Positions 3,208 through 22,370 of a DNA stretch of 64,000 nucleotides are shown piece by piece (within the stretch, counting starts at the first letter, position 1; the number at the start of each line of letters is the position of its first letter). The notes below the pieces were generated by a model. The model did not search any database, was not told the DNA's origin, and worked only from the letters and a program-made list of their open reading frames with translations. Where the stretch lies: assembly GCA_016190445.1 (NCBI GenBank), contig JACPQL010000026.1, positions 1-64,000 of the forward strand, given 5' to 3'. The translations under genes were made by a program, and so were the position numbers. The DNA is from Chloroflexota bacterium. GTDB taxonomy: Bacteria; Chloroflexota; Dehalococcoidia; Lucifugimonadales; JACPQL01.

Positions 3208-3432
3208 GGTATCCTCCCCCCTATCGCCTGATGCCATGGTACCACAGCAGACCTCTCTACCCGCAAATAGCGATTGACCCTTGTAGGGCATCCCGACAGG
3301 TCGGGACAACCTACAGATTGAATCGCTATCCTTGGGTCTCTACCGGCGGGGTGTCCTCCACAGGCCCTCGGTGCTATCATGGCAGGCGCGCGCGGGGTGA
3401 GGCCCCACTTCGTCGAGAGGAGGGATGCGGCC

Positions 3433-4641
3433 ATGCGAGAGGGAGGTCCTGGCCCCCTGGCGGGGCTCACGGTCCTGGACCTGGCCAACCTGGTGGCGGG
3501 CGGGCTGGCGGCTTCTCACCTGGCGGATTTCGGCGCCAGGGTGATAAAAGTGGAGCGCCCCGGCACCGGCGATCTGCTCCGCCAGTGGGGGCCCTACAAG
3601 AACGGCGTATCCCTGTGGTGGAAGGTCCTGGCCCGCAACAAGGAGTCCATCACCCTGAACCTGACTCGCAAGGAGGGCCAGGAGGTCCTCAAGCGGCTGG
3701 TGGCCCACGCCGACGTGATGGTGGAGGGGTTCCGCCCCGGCACCATGGACCGGTGGGGCCTCTCCTACGATGTGCTGAAGCAGATAAACCCGCGCCTCAT
3801 CCTGGCCACTATCTCCGGCTTCGGCCTGACGGGGCCCTACAAGGACCGCCCCGGCTTTGGCACCGTGGCCGAATCCATGAGCGGCTTCGTGAACGCCACC
3901 GGCTTCCCAGACGGCCCTCCATTACTGCCCCCCCTTCCTCTGGCCGACGAGGTGGCGGGCACTTTCGCCGCCATGGCCATCATGATGGCCCTCTACGAGC
4001 GGGACGGGCGAGGCTCCGGCCAGGGCCAGGTGATTGACGTCAGCCTCTACGAGCCCCTGCTCCGGCTGATGATCCCTCACGCCACCATGTACGACCAGCT
4101 AGGCATGCTCTCCCACCGCCAGGGCAACCGGTTCTCCGATGCGGCGCCTCGCGGCCTCTACCAGGCCGCCGATGGCCGCTGGCTCTCCCTTTCGGCCACC
4201 ACCCAGGGGGTGTGGGAGCCCCTGGCCAAGGCCATGGGGCGGGAGGACCTGCTCACTCACCCCCACTTCAAGGACAACCCCGCCAGGGTAAAGAACGTGG
4301 ACGAGGTGGACCGGGTGGTGGGTGAGTGGATTGGAGCGCGGCCGCTGGATGAGGCCTACCGGGTGCTCCATGAGGCGGGCGCCGTGGTCTTCCCCGTGTA
4401 CAACACTGACCAGATACTTGAGGACCCCCACTACCAGGCCCGAGAGGACATCGTTGAGGTGCCGGACCCCGAGCTGGGCTGCATCAAGATGCAGTGCGTG
4501 GTGCCGCGGCTCGTCCGCACCCCTGGCAAGGTCCGTTGGGCAGGCCCTACCCTCGGTCAGCACAATGAGCAGGTGTACAGCGGGCTCCTGGATGCAAAGC
4601 CGGGGGAGCTGGCCCAGTGGCGCCAGCAAGGCATCATCTGA
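3433..4641 (+). CDS. Class III (CaiB/BaiF family) CoA-transferase
   Basis: A 402-residue enzyme expected to move CoA between an acyl-CoA donor and a carboxylic acid. The N-terminal GLTVLDLANLVAG, the VIKVERP strand and the LADEVAG motif place Asp172 at the position of the family's catalytic aspartate (Asp169 in formyl-CoA transferase). The start at 3433 follows GAGAGGAGGGATGCGGCC; the frame is open to 3379 but without a ribosome site. It is the first gene of a tight operon (21- and 22-bp gaps) with a flavoprotein and a probable selenoprotein. This suggests activation of an organic acid as its CoA ester before a redox step. The acid itself is not identifiable. A possible -10 TATCAT lies about 55 bp upstream, without a convincing -35. 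Confidence 0.92.
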   Translation: MREGGPGPLAGLTVLDLANLVAGGLAASHLADFGARVIKVERPGTGDLLRQWGPYKNGVSLWWKVLARNKESITLNLTRKEGQEVLKRLVAHADVMVEGFRPGTMDRWGLSYDVLKQINPRLILATISGFGLTGPYKDRPGFGTVAESMSGFVNATGFPDGPPLLPPLPLADEVAGTFAAMAIMMALYERDGRGSGQGQVIDVSLYEPLLRLMIPHATMYDQLGMLSHRQGNRFSDAAPRGLYQAADGRWLSLSATTQGVWEPLAKAMGREDLLTHPHFKDNPARVKNVDEVDRVVGEWIGARPLDEAYRVLHEAGAVVFPVYNTDQILEDPHYQAREDIVEVPDPELGCIKMQCVVPRLVRTPGKVRWAGPTLGQHNEQVYSGLLDAKPGELAQWRQQGII

Positions 4642-4662: not shown

Positions 4663-6153
4663 ATGCGCGATTCCGATTCCTACGATGTGGTGGTGGTGGG
4701 GGCGGGCAACGCCGCGCTCTGCGCGGCCATTGCCGCGGCGCAGCGCGGTTGCCGGGTGCTGGTCCTGGAACGGGCCCCGGAGCACTTTCGAGGTGGCAAC
4801 ACCTACTTCACCGGCGGCGCCATACGCTTCGCCTACGAGGGGATGGAGGATGTCCGCGCTCTCATCCCCGACCTCTCGCCAAAGGAGGCCGCCTCCATGG
4901 AGGTGGGGCGCTATTCCCAGGACCAGTTCTACGAGGACCTGATGCGGGTGACGGAGGGGCGCTCCGACCCGGAGCTGGCCCAGGTGCTGGTATCCCAGTC
5001 CAACCCAACCATGCGCTGGCTTCAGGAGAGCGGCATGCACTTCGTTCCCCTGTGGGGCCGGCAGGCCTTTCGCCTGGGCGACAAGTACCATTTCTGGGGT
5101 GGCCTGGTCCTGGAGGCGGTGGGCGCTGGAAAGGGGCTCTCTGACCAGGAGTTCCAGATTGCCGAGAAGGCGGGCGTGACTGTCCGGTACGAGACGGGGG
5201 CGGTCAGCCTCCTGGTGGACTCTAAAGCCAGGGTGTGTGGCGTGAAGGCACGCTCCCCCCAGGGGTACGCTGATTTCAGCGCCAGAGCCGTGGTCCTGGC
5301 CTGCGGCGGCTTTGAGGCCAACGCTGAGATGCGCACGCGATACCTTGGCGCTGGCTGGGAGATGGTCAAGGTCCGGGGCGTCCGCTACAACACGGGGGAC
5401 GGCATCCGGATGGCCCTGGAGATAGGCGCACAGCCCTACGGCCACTGGTCCGGCTGCCACGCCGTGGCCTGGGACCTGAACGCCCCGCCCTTCGGGGACC
5501 GGAACGTGGCAGACCTCTTCCAGAAGCACTCCTACCCCTTCGGCCTCATCGTGAACGTGCGTGGGGAGCGGTTCGTGGACGAGGGCGCCGACTTTCGCAA
5601 CTACACCTACGCCAAGTACGGCCGGGAGATACTGAAGCAGCCCCAGCAGGCGGCCTTCCAGCTCTTCGACGACAAGGTGAAGCACCTGCTGCGCGACGAG
5701 TACCATATACCTCAGGTGACCATGGCCCAGGCCAACACCATCGAGGCTCTGGCCGACCGGCTGGGCATAGACCGAGAGGGGCTGGTGCGGACAGTACGGG
5801 AGTTCAACGCCGCGGTCCAGGCCGGTGAATACAACCCCACGGCGCTGGACAGCAAGCACACCCTAGGCATCATGCCCCCCAAGTCCAACTGGGCCCTTCC
5901 TCTGGACACGCCGCCCTTCGTGGGGTACGCCGTGACCTGTGGCATCACCTTCACCTTCGGGGGGCTCAAGATCAACACCAGGGCCCAGGTCCTGGACCAG
6001 GATGAGCGCCCCATCCCCGGGCTGTACGGCGCTGGGGAGCTGGTGGGTGGGCTCTTCTACCACAACTACCCGGGCGGCTCGGGCCTCATGGGAGGGTCCG
6101 TCTTCGGCAGCATAGCGGGCAGTAGCGCCTCGGAGGATATGGGGAGGAGTTGA
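4663..6153 (+). CDS. FAD-binding dehydrogenase, fumarate reductase/TcuA-like
   Basis: A 496-residue flavoprotein of the succinate dehydrogenase/fumarate reductase flavoprotein family. The dinucleotide-binding fold VVVGAGNAALCAAIAAA (residues 9-25) is followed by the GGNTYFTGG loop that contacts FAD. The C-terminal end LYGAGELVGG...GGSGLMGGSVFG is the second FAD-binding stretch. Overall it resembles tricarballylate dehydrogenase (TcuA) more than true respiratory fumarate reductase: it has no Tat signal, no haem domain and no partner iron-sulfur subunit. It probably desaturates or reduces an organic acid or CoA ester in the cytoplasm. The ribosome site GCAGGAGAGAGGCC precedes the ATG. It is the middle gene of the CoA-transferase/flavoprotein/selenoprotein operon. 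Confidence 0.88.
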   Translation: MRDSDSYDVVVVGAGNAALCAAIAAAQRGCRVLVLERAPEHFRGGNTYFTGGAIRFAYEGMEDVRALIPDLSPKEAASMEVGRYSQDQFYEDLMRVTEGRSDPELAQVLVSQSNPTMRWLQESGMHFVPLWGRQAFRLGDKYHFWGGLVLEAVGAGKGLSDQEFQIAEKAGVTVRYETGAVSLLVDSKARVCGVKARSPQGYADFSARAVVLACGGFEANAEMRTRYLGAGWEMVKVRGVRYNTGDGIRMALEIGAQPYGHWSGCHAVAWDLNAPPFGDRNVADLFQKHSYPFGLIVNVRGERFVDEGADFRNYTYAKYGREILKQPQQAAFQLFDDKVKHLLRDEYHIPQVTMAQANTIEALADRLGIDREGLVRTVREFNAAVQAGEYNPTALDSKHTLGIMPPKSNWALPLDTPPFVGYAVTCGITFTFGGLKINTRAQVLDQDERPIPGLYGAGELVGGLFYHNYPGGSGLMGGSVFGSIAGSSASEDMGRS

Positions 6154-6175
6154 ACGTAGCGCAGGAGGTACCCTC

Positions 6176-7852
6176 ATGGCAAGGCTAGACGTCCTGAATC
6201 CGGTGGCCCAGACGGTGGAGCACAAGGTGGACCCCGCCCCCAGGCTCACCACCCTGGCGGGCAAGCGGGTGGGCCTGTGGTGGAACATGAAGGCCGGCGG
6301 CGACGTTGCCCTGGACCGGGTGGCGGAGCTGATCTCCCAGAAGTTCCCTGGAGCGAGTTTCAAGCATTACCAGGGCTCGGTGGGGGCCTCTCTGCGCCAC
6401 GCCACAGCCAAGGACGCCGACCGCGTGGCTGCCGAGTGCGACGTGGTGGTGGGCAGTACCAGCGACTGAGGCTCCTGCACATCGTGGCTGGTCCACGACA
6501 TGGTCGAGTTCGAGAAGCGGCGCATACCTACGGTGAGCTGGACGGCCCAGCACTTCATCCACGATGCCCGCCGCAGCGGCGAGAACTTCGGCCTGCCCTC
6601 CTTTCCCATCGCGGTGATGCCTACCCCCTTCACCAACCAGACGCAAGAGCGCATTCACCAGATGGTGGACGCCTCCATAGACCAGGTGATCGCTGGTCTC
6701 ACGCAGCCGGTGGAAGCGGCGCCCGCTGCGCCTCGGCCCAAGCCCACAGAGGTCCTCACCTTCCAGGACGGCGACCTGCTGGCGGCCGCCCAGCGGATGA
6801 ATGACCACTTCCTGGAGCAGGCGTGGAGCGACGGCTTCCCCCTGGTGCCTCCCACAGCCCAGGCGGTGGAGCGGATGCTCCAGGGCACCAAGCGCAAGCG
6901 GGACGAGGTGGTCGTGGTCCTTGAGCCCGGCTTTGGCATAGCCACGGTGGAGAAGATAGCCATAAACGCCGTCATGGCCGGGTGCCGTCCCGATCACCTG
7001 CCCGTGGTCATCGCGGCGGTCCAGTGCCTCGCCGACCCCAAGATGTACCTGCGCAACAAGGCCATGTCCACCGGGCCCCACGCACCCCTCATCCTTGTCA
7101 ACGGCCCCATCGCGTCCAGGCTCAACATCAACTCCGGGTGCTGCGCCCTGGGGCCGGGATCCGTGTCCTATGCCAACAGCGTAATTGGCCGCGCCCTGCG
7201 CCTGGTGATGATGAACGTGGGCCACACCTACCCCGCTGTCTCGGACATGGACACCATCGGCTCGCCCACCAAGTACAGCATGTGTTTTGCCGAGAATGTG
7301 GAGGGGAGCCCGTGGGAGCCCTACCACGTGGAGCACGGCTACGACAAAGACGCCAGCACGGTGACGGTCTGGTTCGTCTACGGCATCTGCGAGCTGAAAG
7401 ACTTCACCAACAGCGTCCCGGAGAACCTGGTGGAGGTATTCTCCACCGCCGCCACCAACGTGGCCCAGGTGGGCACAGGGCTGTGGCTCATGGGGCGGCG
7501 CGCCGACCCCCGCTACGGCCTGGACGAGAAGGAGCACAACACCGTCATCATCTGCCCGGAGCACGCCACGCTCTTCCACGAGGCGGGGTGGGATAAGGAG
7601 CGCATCCGGCAGGAACTGTACCGTCGGGCGCGGATGCCCTTCCGCCTTCTGATGCTTTCCAAGGAGAAGAAGGGCCTGCTCATCGCCCATCCGGAACTCC
7701 AGTGGCTGTGGGATTGTCCGGAGACACCGCTACCAATCGTGGAGACCCCCGACTGCTTCGACATCGTGGTGGCCGGGACCACGGGCGGCGCGGGGCGCGG
7801 CGCCTACTTCTACGGCGCGGGCGAGCCGGTCACCAAGCCTGTGGAGGAGTAG
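6176..7852 (+). CDS. UGSC-family selenoprotein (in-frame TGA read as Sec98), two-domain fusion
   Basis: Two open stretches, 6176-6466 and 6470-7852, lie in the same frame and are separated only by TGA at 6467-6469. Reading the TGA as selenocysteine gives a 558-residue protein with the motif TSD-U-GSC-TSW and Sec at residue 98. This matches the conserved context of the UGSC (seleno)protein family described from marine metagenomes, as does the following VHDMVEFEKRRIPTV. Residues 1-180 form the UGSC domain. Residues 190-558 form a second conserved domain (for example LVNGPIASRLNINSG and NSVIGRALRLVMMNVGHTYP) of unknown function, often a separate protein elsewhere to my recollection. The start has GCAGGAGGTACCCTC upstream. 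The U-x-x-C spacing suggests a thiol/selenol redox centre. A pseudogene or sequencing error is less likely because both sides of the TGA are conserved. No sel genes are in the window. Confidence 0.82.
6482..6498 (+). promoter_or_regulatory. Candidate bacterial SECIS hairpin
   Basis: Directly 3' of the TGA, TCGTGG (6482-6487) pairs perfectly with CCACGA (6493-6498) around the five-base loop CTGGT. The stem starts 13 nt and the loop 19 nt after the TGA, the same spacing as in the E. coli fdhF SECIS element, and the loop holds the GGU that SelB recognition favours. The G pair is not at the first loop positions, so the match to the usual consensus is partial. Confidence 0.55.
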
Positions 7853-8403: not shown

Positions 8404-9615
8404 ATGCTGAACGTAACCCGGCTCCTATGCGGGCGTGCCACGCCCGGGGACGCGCTCCGCTACGGCGAGGCGGTCTCACACCCCCACGCCGCGCCCCTCC
8501 AGCCCACGGTGCACCACCGCCCCGTGGTGGTGTGGAACGTCACCCGCCGCTGCAACCTCCACTGCCTCCACTGCTACTCCACCTCCCAGGACCGGGACTA
8601 CCCCGGCGAGCTCACCTCAGCAGAGGCCAGGGCGCTGCTTGACGACCTGGCGGGCTACCGGGTGCCCGTGGTGCTCTTCTCCGGCGGTGAGCCCCTGCTG
8701 CGCCACGACCTCTTCGAGCTCCTGCCCTACGCCGCGCAAAAAGGGCTGCGCGTCGGCCTCTCCACCAACGGCACGCTCATCACCCAGGAGGTGGCGAGCA
8801 GGCTCAAGGCGGCGGGGGTGCTCTACGCCGGCATCAGCATTGACGGCATGGAGGATGCCAACGACCGCTTCCGGGGCGTGCGGGGCGCCTTCCGCGAGGC
8901 ACTGGCTGGTATCCGCAACACCATGGCCGTGGGGCTGCGGGTCAGCCTCCGCTTCACCCTCACACGGCGCAACATGGGAGAGTTGGACTCTGTCTTCGAA
9001 CTGGTGGAGCGAGAGGGCATTCCCCGGCTCTGTATCTACCACCTGGCCTACGCTGGCCGGGCCACACGGGTACCGGACCTGGCCTTGGACTCCTCAGAGG
9101 CGAGGGCCGCCGTGGACTCCATCTTTCGGTGGACTCAGGAGTTCCACCGTCGTGGCCTGGACACCGAGGTCCTCACCGTGGACAACCACGCGGACGGTGC
9201 GTACATGGTGCTGCGCCTGGCCCAAGAGGACCCCCAGCGGGCCAAGGAGGTCCTGGCCCTGCTGCGCCGCAACGGTGGCAACGCCTCCGGCATCGGCATC
9301 GCCTGCGTGGACAACCTGGGCAACGTCCACGCCGACCAGTTCTGGTGGGGGTACTCCTTCGGCAACGTCAGGCAGCGCCCCTTCAGCCGGGTCTGGGAGG
9401 ACACCTCCGACCCCCTGATGCGCGGCCTGAAGGACCGCAAGCACCTCCTCACCGGGCGGTGCTCCCGGTGCCGCTTCCTGGACATCTGCAACGGCAACCT
9501 GCGGGTGCGGGCGGAGGCCGCTCACGGCGACGTGTGGGCGGCCGACCCGGCCTGCTACCTGACCGACGAGGAGATAGGCGCCGTGACGGCAGGCGCCCAC
9601 GGGAGCGGTCAGTGA
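8404..9615 (+). CDS. Radical SAM/SPASM enzyme, NirJ/AhbC-like
   Basis: A 403-residue radical S-adenosylmethionine protein. The CX3CX2C cluster motif is Cys50, Cys54 and Cys57 (TRRCNLHCLHC). It is followed by the GGEPLL SAM-binding motif and a C-terminal SPASM-type region with Cys353, Cys356, Cys362 and Cys384. The N-terminus (MLNVTRLLCG...GDALRYG) and the segments GISIDGMEDANDRFRG and SFGNVRQRPFSRVW resemble the NirJ/AhbC proteins of haem d1 and alternative haem synthesis, which remove side chains from siroheme derivatives. The start has GAGGGAAGA before the ATG. It overlaps the next radical SAM gene by four bases, so the two are translated together. Other tetrapyrrole genes are not in the window, so the substrate is inferred from similarity alone. 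Confidence 0.85.
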   Translation: MLNVTRLLCGRATPGDALRYGEAVSHPHAAPLQPTVHHRPVVVWNVTRRCNLHCLHCYSTSQDRDYPGELTSAEARALLDDLAGYRVPVVLFSGGEPLLRHDLFELLPYAAQKGLRVGLSTNGTLITQEVASRLKAAGVLYAGISIDGMEDANDRFRGVRGAFREALAGIRNTMAVGLRVSLRFTLTRRNMGELDSVFELVEREGIPRLCIYHLAYAGRATRVPDLALDSSEARAAVDSIFRWTQEFHRRGLDTEVLTVDNHADGAYMVLRLAQEDPQRAKEVLALLRRNGGNASGIGIACVDNLGNVHADQFWWGYSFGNVRQRPFSRVWEDTSDPLMRGLKDRKHLLTGRCSRCRFLDICNGNLRVRAEAAHGDVWAADPACYLTDEEIGAVTAGAHGSGQ

Positions 9616-10709
9616 CCACCGTGACGTTGGCCGACCTGAAGGGCCGGGTCCTCCCCCAGAACGACTACGCCCAGTCGCCGGTGATAGTCTTCTGGGAGAC
9701 GACCCGCGCCTGCGCCCTGGCCTGCGTCCACTGTCGAGCCAGTGCCATCCCCCAGCGCCACCCTCTGGAGCTGTCCACAGAGGAGGGCCGCACCCGCGTT
9801 ATTGACGAACTCGCCTCCTTCCCCCAGAGGCCGATACTGGTGCTCAGCGGGGGCGACCCTCTCATGCGGCGGGACATCTTGGAGCTGGCGCGCTACGGCG
9901 TTGAGCACGGGCTGGTGGTCTCCCTCTCTCCCGCGGCCACCGCGCTGAGCAACGGCAGGAACCTGGCCAGGGTGCGAGAGACAGGAGTGCGCCACATCTC
10001 AGTGAGCCTGGACGGCTCGTGCCCCGACACTCATGACAGCTTCCGCGGCGTCGCCGGCTCCTATGAGCGAGCGCGCCAGACGGTGGCTGTGGCCAGAGAG
10101 GTGGGCCTATCGGTGCAGGTAAACACCACGGTGACCCGCCGGACCAGGCAGGACCTTCCCGCGATCGCCGAGCGGGTGGCCGAGTGGGGCGCCGTCATGT
10201 GGGACGTGTTCTTCCTGGTGCCCACTGGCCGGGCCAACACCCTGGTGGAGGACGTGCTCTCCCCCGAGGAGCACGAGGAGGTGTACACCTGGCTGGCGGA
10301 CCTGGCCGAGGGTGCGCCCTATCGCCTCAAGGCCACCATGGGCCAGCCCTTCCGCCGGGTGACGCTGCTGCGGGAGTGGCGTCAGCACGGGTTCCCCCAG
10401 GGCGACATCCGGGTCCCTGTCAGCACCAATGATGGCAAGGGCGTCCTGTTTGTCTCCCACGTGGGTGAGGTCTTCCCCAGCGGCTTCCTCCCCGTCTGCG
10501 CGGGGAACGTCCGCACCGACTCCCTGGTGCGGGTGTACCAGGAGTCGGCGCTGTTCCGCGACCTGCGCGACCCCTCGCTGCTCAAGGGCAAGTGCGGCCT
10601 CTGCCCCTTCAACGCCGTGTGCGGCGGCTGCCGCGCCCGCGCCTACGCCATGAGCGGCGACATGTTCGCCGCCGAGCCCTGTTGCCCCTTCATGCCCCCT
10701 TCGGCCTAG
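9612..10709 (+). CDS. Radical SAM/SPASM protein, TIGR04053/AhbD-like
   Basis: A 365-residue radical SAM enzyme starting at GTG 9612, whose bases overlap the previous stop (GTGA). The cluster motif is Cys34, Cys38 and Cys41 in TTRACALACVHC; GGDPLMR binds SAM. The C-terminal KCGLCPFNAVCGGCRARA carries the SPASM-type auxiliary cluster cysteines. The FWETTRACALAC signature and overall layout fit the TIGR04053 family, close to AhbD/NirJ2 haem synthases. With the upstream partner it may form a two-step siroheme-to-haem route or modify a peptide. The longer open frame upstream is only the shadow of the first gene. Confidence 0.83.
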   Translation: MTTVTLADLKGRVLPQNDYAQSPVIVFWETTRACALACVHCRASAIPQRHPLELSTEEGRTRVIDELASFPQRPILVLSGGDPLMRRDILELARYGVEHGLVVSLSPAATALSNGRNLARVRETGVRHISVSLDGSCPDTHDSFRGVAGSYERARQTVAVAREVGLSVQVNTTVTRRTRQDLPAIAERVAEWGAVMWDVFFLVPTGRANTLVEDVLSPEEHEEVYTWLADLAEGAPYRLKATMGQPFRRVTLLREWRQHGFPQGDIRVPVSTNDGKGVLFVSHVGEVFPSGFLPVCAGNVRTDSLVRVYQESALFRDLRDPSLLKGKCGLCPFNAVCGGCRARAYAMSGDMFAAEPCCPFMPPSA

Positions 10710-22112: not shown

Positions 22113-22254
22113 TACTTTGTGGTACGGCCCTCTTCATTTCCGCACAACGGCCCAACTGCTTGGCCTAGTCGCAGCAGTAGGGTGGGTGAAACCCGCCTGC
22201 GTTGACGCCGCCTTCCGGGCTATGGTAGCCTATTAGCAACAACCATATAGGAAG

Positions 22255-22350
22255 TCGCACCGGGAGCTTGGGCAAGCCAGGCTGAGAGGGTGGCCAAACT
22301 CGTCACCGACCGGCTGAACCTGACCTGGGTAATGCCAGCGGAGGAAGGCC
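22255..22350 (+). promoter_or_regulatory. TPP riboswitch (THI element)
   Basis: The leader holds GGCTGAGAGGGTGG (22280-22293) and CTGAACCTGACCTGGGTAAT with GCCAGCGGAGGAA (22313-22345), the two halves of the thiamine pyrophosphate aptamer. It precedes thiG and would lower thiamine gene expression when TPP is plentiful. Confidence 0.93.
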
Positions 22351-22370
22351 AGCACGAGACCACCAACGAT

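Follow-up and report, generated by a model that had tools for sequence, protein, structure and literature searches.

The gene and its neighbours

The window, by which is meant the whole 64,000 nt stretch of DNA analysed, contains a complete gene for a UGSC/C-domain fusion selenoprotein at 6176-7852 on the forward strand. By translation it is a single gene of 558 codons with a terminal TAG and one internal TGA at codon 98 (6467-6469, +), read as selenocysteine (Sec). The residues around this codon are TSD-U-GSC-TSW, in agreement with a first-pass annotation that had described two same-frame stretches joined by one TGA. A Shine-Dalgarno-like AGGAGG is visible in the sequence at 6163-6168 (+), 7 nt 5' of the ATG at 6176. 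Table 11 ORF calling divides the frame into 6176-6469 (97 aa) and 6500-7852 (450 aa); these are exactly the two pieces expected if gene callers split the gene or mis-start it at 6500, as had been anticipated.

The protein has two parts. The UGSC domain (approximately residues 1-180; 6176-6715, +) has a predicted alternating beta-alpha structure. Residues 5-176 of the joined protein match the Pfam family UGSC (PF24696) with 123.5 bits (cut-off 25), and the match spans the TGA; the NCBIfam equivalog model NF041046 scores 102.5 bits, below its curated cut-off of 125, with C scored in place of U. Cys101 (TGC, 6476-6478, +) is the candidate resolving cysteine of the UxxC motif. The UGSC residues conform to the family motif [UC]-G-[ST]-C. 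Position 98 (U or C) and C101 are invariant in the 31 chosen sequences of one alignment, and Cys101 also in the 18 sequences of a second; both alignments omit two divergent copies which depart from Cys101 (L046:6001, which has TGA there, and L046:11671). The C-terminal partner domain (residues 194-558; 6755-7849, +) has no match in Pfam (E≤5) or NCBIfam (E≤1). It makes up about two thirds of the protein and is a separate, unannotated domain which the first-pass annotation overlooked.

Two genes precede the fusion on the same strand in a probable operon. The first encodes a class III CoA-transferase of the CaiB/BaiF type (3379-4641, +; PF02515, 415.3 bits) and is separated by 21 nt from the next, which encodes an FAD flavoprotein resembling the tricarballylate dehydrogenase TcuA (4663-6153, +; NF006130, 597.1 bits against a cut-off of 369; PF00890, 161.8 bits). 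The flavoprotein falls under the cut-off of TIGR02485 (255.9 against 372.55 bits); its gene stops at TGA and is followed after 22 nt by the UGSC gene. Two adjacent radical SAM genes are found at 8404-10706 (+), the first of which resembles AhbC/NirJ of heme-type cofactor synthesis (541 bits against a cut-off of 650). Further along, an ordinary TPP riboswitch (22250-22363, +; 57.9 bits) precedes the genes for ThiG (22436) and thiamine monophosphate synthase (23221).

Decoding of the in-frame TGA

A search of genome contigs gave a set of 51 homologous loci. Position 98 is covered by 61 homologous places in 48 of these (L060, L070 and L071 do not cover it), and the comparison of U with C at this residue, which the first-pass annotation had proposed, gives 58 TGA, two TGC and one TCA. 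Among the 24 places which cover the site at 55% identity or above, this codon is TGA in 22 and TGC in two. Both TGC copies belong to Phytohabitans suffuscus (L039 and L040); in the TCA copy (L046:11671) UxxC is no longer present. The source genome has four UGSC genes with one TGA in each. UGSC is present in 26 of 59 genomes of the order, the source genome being counted among the 59. There are 66 UGSC places in these genomes: 65 have exactly one TGA and the remaining one is partial. Frames of at least 540 codons, long enough for the fusion, occur at 13 of the 66, a count based on frame length.

A SECIS-like hairpin with a 6 bp stem and the 5 nt loop CUGGU begins 12 nt after the TGA (6482-6498, +). 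The pairing register differs, by eye, between subgroups of the family, so base-pair covariation was not counted and a synonymous-codon test was used instead, with 300 shuffles per sequence over a 27-nt stretch at offset +12. In every one of the 57 distinct Sec copies the hairpin is more stable than the mean of the shuffles (z -3.32 to -0.56, mean -1.89; 24 of 57 at p≤0.05), although many of the sequences are related and their z-scores are not independent tests. The window copy alone is not significant (z -1.27, p 0.13), and its full 51 nt gives a z of +0.25 with dinucleotide shuffles and -0.06 with synonymous shuffles. In the two Cys copies the hairpin is not stabilised (z +0.12 and +0.89); both still encode TSW..HDM, yet their choice of codons disrupts the stem. 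The TCA copy has a z of -0.89. The +12 stretch was picked after the folds had been viewed, and for this reason the same 27-nt window was slid along 56 Sec copies as a position control. Offset +12 has a mean z of -1.96 (56/56 negative). The 17 remaining offsets, which range from -84 to +120, have means between -0.35 and +0.26, and the effect weakens to a mean of -0.88 (48/56 negative) when all 51 nt are taken. Such stability, seen at the level of the family and specific to offset +12, is what would be expected of a bacterial SECIS element.

The source assembly (2.02 Mb, 52 contigs), which is 81.1% complete, was searched for the selenocysteine machinery. A tRNA-Sec scores 71.5 bits and is called SeC (tca) by ARAGORN; its identification rests on ARAGORN, because the tRNA-Sec model also exceeds its cut-off at a place that ARAGORN calls tRNA-Ser and matches all 14 control genomes at E≤0.001. 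SelB scores 348.3 bits with its frame neighbours. SelD (C46:1139-2059, L016) scores 380.3 bits and has one in-frame TGA of its own. Neither a profile nor the protein of a relative (E≤10) finds SelA in this assembly. Thus selB, selC and selD, of the four genes that the first-pass annotation had wished to see, are present and selA was not found; a genome lacking the first three, which it had held to be incompatible with the reading, is not what is observed. SelA exceeds its cut-off in 48 of the 59 genomes of the order (the source genome included in the 59), and in 18 of 20 in another count which draws on the same genomes; a gap in the assembly is therefore the likely reason why it was not found here. 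Among eight genomes tested from behind homologue loci, SelA is found in all seven with the Sec form and not in Phytohabitans, which has the Cys form. A Sec-dependent enzyme had been thought unusual for a Chloroflexota-like genome of this kind; that view fails, because both UGSC and SelA are common in the order.

One further UGSC selenoprotein gene of the source genome lies within 4.5 kb of sequence (C28:1-4525, L110) that also carries a tRNA-Sec and genes for a thioredoxin, an SMP-30-like protein and a C-domain, all on one strand.

It is very nearly certain that UGA 98 is decoded as selenocysteine by tRNA-Sec and SelB, with the hairpin just downstream, as comparison of the sequences indicates, and that the product is a 558-residue UGSC-family selenoprotein. 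The assignment of Sec98 in the first-pass annotation is borne out by the homologues, the exchange of Sec and Cys at the site, the family-conserved hairpin and the presence of tRNA-Sec, SelB and SelD. TGA could instead be a sense codon throughout the genome, or be read as another residue owing to the absent SelA, and the failure to find SelA in the assembly fits this. However, TGA terminates the neighbouring flavoprotein gene and 26 of the 49 long homologues with a readable end (those reaching residue 480 or beyond; the others stop at TAG in 13 cases and TAA in 10), so the same codon serves both as Sec and as stop. An altered code is ruled out in that TGA ends genes too, and decoding as some other residue is made very improbable by tRNA-Sec, SelB and a TGA-bearing SelD, by the frequency of SelA in the order and by the incompleteness of the assembly. 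That the TGA is a true stop, in a split pseudogene, through a sequencing error or between two polypeptides with a restart at 6500, agrees with the two table 11 ORFs but has a negligible probability, given the 22 TGA and two Cys codons at the close places, UGSC homology that crosses the TGA and the conserved hairpin. A chance ORF, a sequencing error and a pseudogene are all ruled out because the TGA is shared at the same codon by other organisms.

The MAG NC_groundwater_644 (Chloroflexi; L044, L045, L046, L049, L050, L055, L057 and L067) contains 20 UGSC places in which the Sec site is covered, and 19 of these have TGA, so that a single genome carries an extensive set of selenoprotein paralogues. 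A fused paralogue in the same MAG (L046:6001-7632) has a TGA in place of Cys101 as well as at the Sec98 position (UGTU), and may be a double-Sec variant or a product of decay.

Folds and kinship of the two domains

UGSC selenoproteins have been known since 2008. In the portion of PMC2398784 available, UGSC is a major GOS family with 255 Sec and 21 Cys members, and the family and a fusion of UGSC with a domain named 'Unknown_1' are already published. The window protein resembles those proteins (PF24696, NF041046) in the U-G-S-C motif, the UGSC domain, a position that is mostly Sec and fusion to a further domain; it differs from the NF041046 equivalog in falling below that model's cut-off. Its C-domain is likely to be identical with Unknown_1. 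UGSC is listed without a function in the accessible text of PMC13188914, PMC9312934 and PMC9402790. The window gene is a member of this known family, and one for which there is a new functional lead.

Proteins of the thioredoxin family have a secondary-structure order that differs from alternating beta-alpha units. An AlphaFold model of the window protein, built on the 31-sequence alignment, has a mean pLDDT of 87.4 and a pTM of 0.88. The predicted N-domain contains five beta-alpha units in the order E31-36 H42-56 E61-66 H78-87 E90-96 H99-114 E119-124 H125-137 E145-148 H157-176, and places U98 just before the helix 99-114. As modelled, this fold does not appear to be that of thioredoxin. A PDB fold search with the model places a flavodiiron protein first and includes flavodoxin-like entries among the best 50 of 1663 matches; thioredoxin is absent from those 50. 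The TM-scores by query are at most 0.20 among the PDB matches listed, and some of the entries are plainly unrelated. At the sequence level, the UGSC profile has only five weak matches in the PDB, the best with an E of 0.02.

Profile comparison points to another family. With hhalign, a profile of 18 UGSC sequences aligns to one of 15 GrdB/PrdB-like proteins over 146 columns (Prob 94.8, E 5.2e-8), Sec on Sec; the 15 are TGA-containing proteins of the order, out of 20 loci fetched. The same comparison still gives Prob 85.7 and E 5.5e-6 after masking of the Sec and Cys columns. Such E-values apply to a single pair, so it is the gap to the controls that counts: the reversed profile gives E 0.01, the C-domain 0.32, and 27 neighbour families (3 to 22 sequences each) 0.0083 to 0.64. 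Some relatives have weak NCBIfam matches over the Sec motif, namely L067 (fused; PrdB 0.006), L050 (PrdB 0.0079, GrdH 0.017) and L061 (GrdF 0.015, GrdB 0.039), with the last two also matching other models, probably by chance. These matches come from relatives only; the window protein itself has no GrdB/PrdB match, and none to PF07355 (GRDB) at E≤5, in a search where the HMMER filters drop most weak matches. The UxxCxxC motif of GrdB, as defined in the available part of PMC13188914, is absent, and UGSCTSW keeps UxxC only. The GrdE-type partner PF09338 is not found in the source genome and is present in 4 of the 59 genomes of the order.

With good confidence, the N-domain is distantly related to the C-terminal, Sec-bearing portion of GrdB/PrdB and is not a thioredoxin fold. 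What the window protein has in common with GrdB/PrdB (the selenoprotein of the glycine, betaine, sarcosine and D-proline reductases; PF07355, TIGR04483) is profile homology with Sec on Sec, and UxxC. It differs from them in having neither a PF07355 match nor UxxCxxC, in its partner, which is the unannotated C-domain, and in a genome without PF09338. It is classed as a remote relative whose way of working may be similar, and not as a GrdB. The same genome also contains a PrdB-like, TGA-containing gene (C20:67748-68152, minus strand, L089), on the same contig about 3.7 kb past the end of the window. This gene is like the UGSC gene in its TGA and in a similar strand-U-helix-GIPTV stretch; it differs in its U-P-V-C motif, its PF07355 match and a 325-codon frame with no C-domain.

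The competing view is that the UGSC domain is thioredoxin-like, with the C-domain as an accessory. UxxC with U/C98 and C101 invariant in the aligned sequences agrees with it, and so does PMC2398784, which in its accessible portion calls UGSC likely Trx-like. One relative (L050:1473-2066) weakly matches BrxA/BrxB (E 0.055) and Disulph_isomer (E 0.013), and one UGSC gene of the source genome shares its contig and strand with a gene for thioredoxin. The beta-alpha order of the model and the results of the fold search tell against this view; in addition, the window protein has no thioredoxin match in Pfam and a thioredoxin-TPR family reaches only E 0.19 with the UGSC profile. It is considered unlikely.

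The C-domain model (38 sequences) has a mean pLDDT of 91.2 and a pTM of 0.92, and finds no confident match in a PDB fold search. The best entries there, fumarase alpha (E 4e-4, with a TM of 0.21 and an rmsd of 16.9) and cyclic amide hydrolases, have TM-scores of about 0.2 and were treated as no match. Nothing is found in a viral structure library at E≤0.001 or among PDB sequences, and a relation to GrdB/PrdB was rejected (hhalign Prob 0.2). GrdE-type chemistry involves a pyruvoyl site. The cysteine of the MAGC motif (C270) was considered for this role; it is invariant in 31 fused sequences, and the idea was dropped because it is replaced by A or T in some split copies. One split C-domain (L061:7108-8196) has a weak glycerate 2-kinase match (E 0.0012, 18 bits against a cut-off of 686).

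In the source genome a C-domain accompanies UGSC at four of four loci, fused at one and split at three. The two genes are adjacent on C28; a hexapeptide-repeat gene lies between them at one C52 locus (45 kb), and at the other (60 kb) the order is UGSC, dehydratase-like, CaiB, C-domain. Separate neighbouring genes, beside or near a stand-alone UGSC gene, are also found elsewhere, for example at L061, L063 and L065. The 365-residue domain is very probably a constant partner of UGSC, encoded separately at other loci and fused here. The remote homology to GrdB/PrdB, the predicted non-thioredoxin fold and the single unannotated C-domain at all four loci are new here; no passage linking UGSC to GrdB or PrdB was found in the accessible parts of the literature.

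Proposed chemistry and meaning for the family

Gene neighbourhood gives some indication of function. Of the 24 loci of close homologues (L021-L043 and L048), 10 have CaiB a short way upstream of the fusion, with tblastn ends 15 to 247 bp apart, and some of the others are cut by contig edges; the ten are not independent, because all are Rokubacteria. Genes near relatives were clustered using a coding score and one representative of each cluster was scanned. They include TctC receptors, GMC oxidoreductase, MR_MLE enzymes, MmgE/PrpD and ABC solute-binding proteins, and the neighbourhood of UGSC thus suggests carboxylate catabolism.

The window protein is likely to be a GrdB-like Sec nucleophile in carboxylate/CoA catabolism. 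A tentative mechanism, somewhat less probable than its alternatives taken together, starts with the neighbouring CaiB CoA-transferase, which would make the CoA ester of a small carboxylate. The C-domain would bind the carboxylate or its CoA ester, a role that is guesswork because the fold is without a confident PDB match. The Sec98 selenolate would then attack a carbon-heteroatom bond that is polarised, in the manner suggested for GrdB, whose chemistry is taken from the parts of PMC13188914 and PMC10838667 available. Cys101 might resolve the selenium adduct as a selenenylsulfide, which a thioredoxin or a flavoprotein could re-reduce. A comparable case is FarB/FarE, the fluoroacetate reductase of Cloacibacillus: in the accessible text of PMC10838667, a GrdB-type Sec is proposed to attack a polarised carbon-heteroatom bond; the partner, operon and host differ from those of UGSC.

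The UGSC/C-domain pair could instead bind or transport selenium, a metal or another small ligand without cleaving any bond. No characterised member was found in the literature, the C-domain fold is unmatched in the PDB, and some relatives adjoin genes for the transporter solute-binding proteins SBP_bac_5 and TctC. However, a role in catabolism is indicated by the neighbours (CaiB, dehydratase-like, flavoprotein, MmgE/PrpD and GMC oxidoreductase), and the polar C-domain residues N116, R146, N154 and E180, invariant in the alignment A4, suggest an active site. Binding or transport alone is accordingly held to be improbable. The best explanation as a whole, a Sec98 UGSC selenoprotein with a GrdB/PrdB-related N-domain, a constant C-domain partner and the mechanism of nucleophilic attack, is probably correct.

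Genes like 6176-7852 come out split or mis-started if the TGA is taken as a stop, which is of practical importance for annotation. In a broader and more speculative view, for which the odds are rather against, UGSC and its C-domain might form an uncharacterised class of two-component selenoenzyme, here fused: a reductase similar to GrdB/GrdE, found in Chloroflexota, Rokubacteria and proteobacteria. Its Sec would break a carbon-heteroatom bond in carboxylates, whether free or CoA-activated, and in one Chloroflexota MAG the class has expanded to 19 places with TGA. With GrdB/PrdB kinship, a partner domain constant across the source genome and a CoA-transferase context, an orphan family gains a testable enzyme hypothesis.
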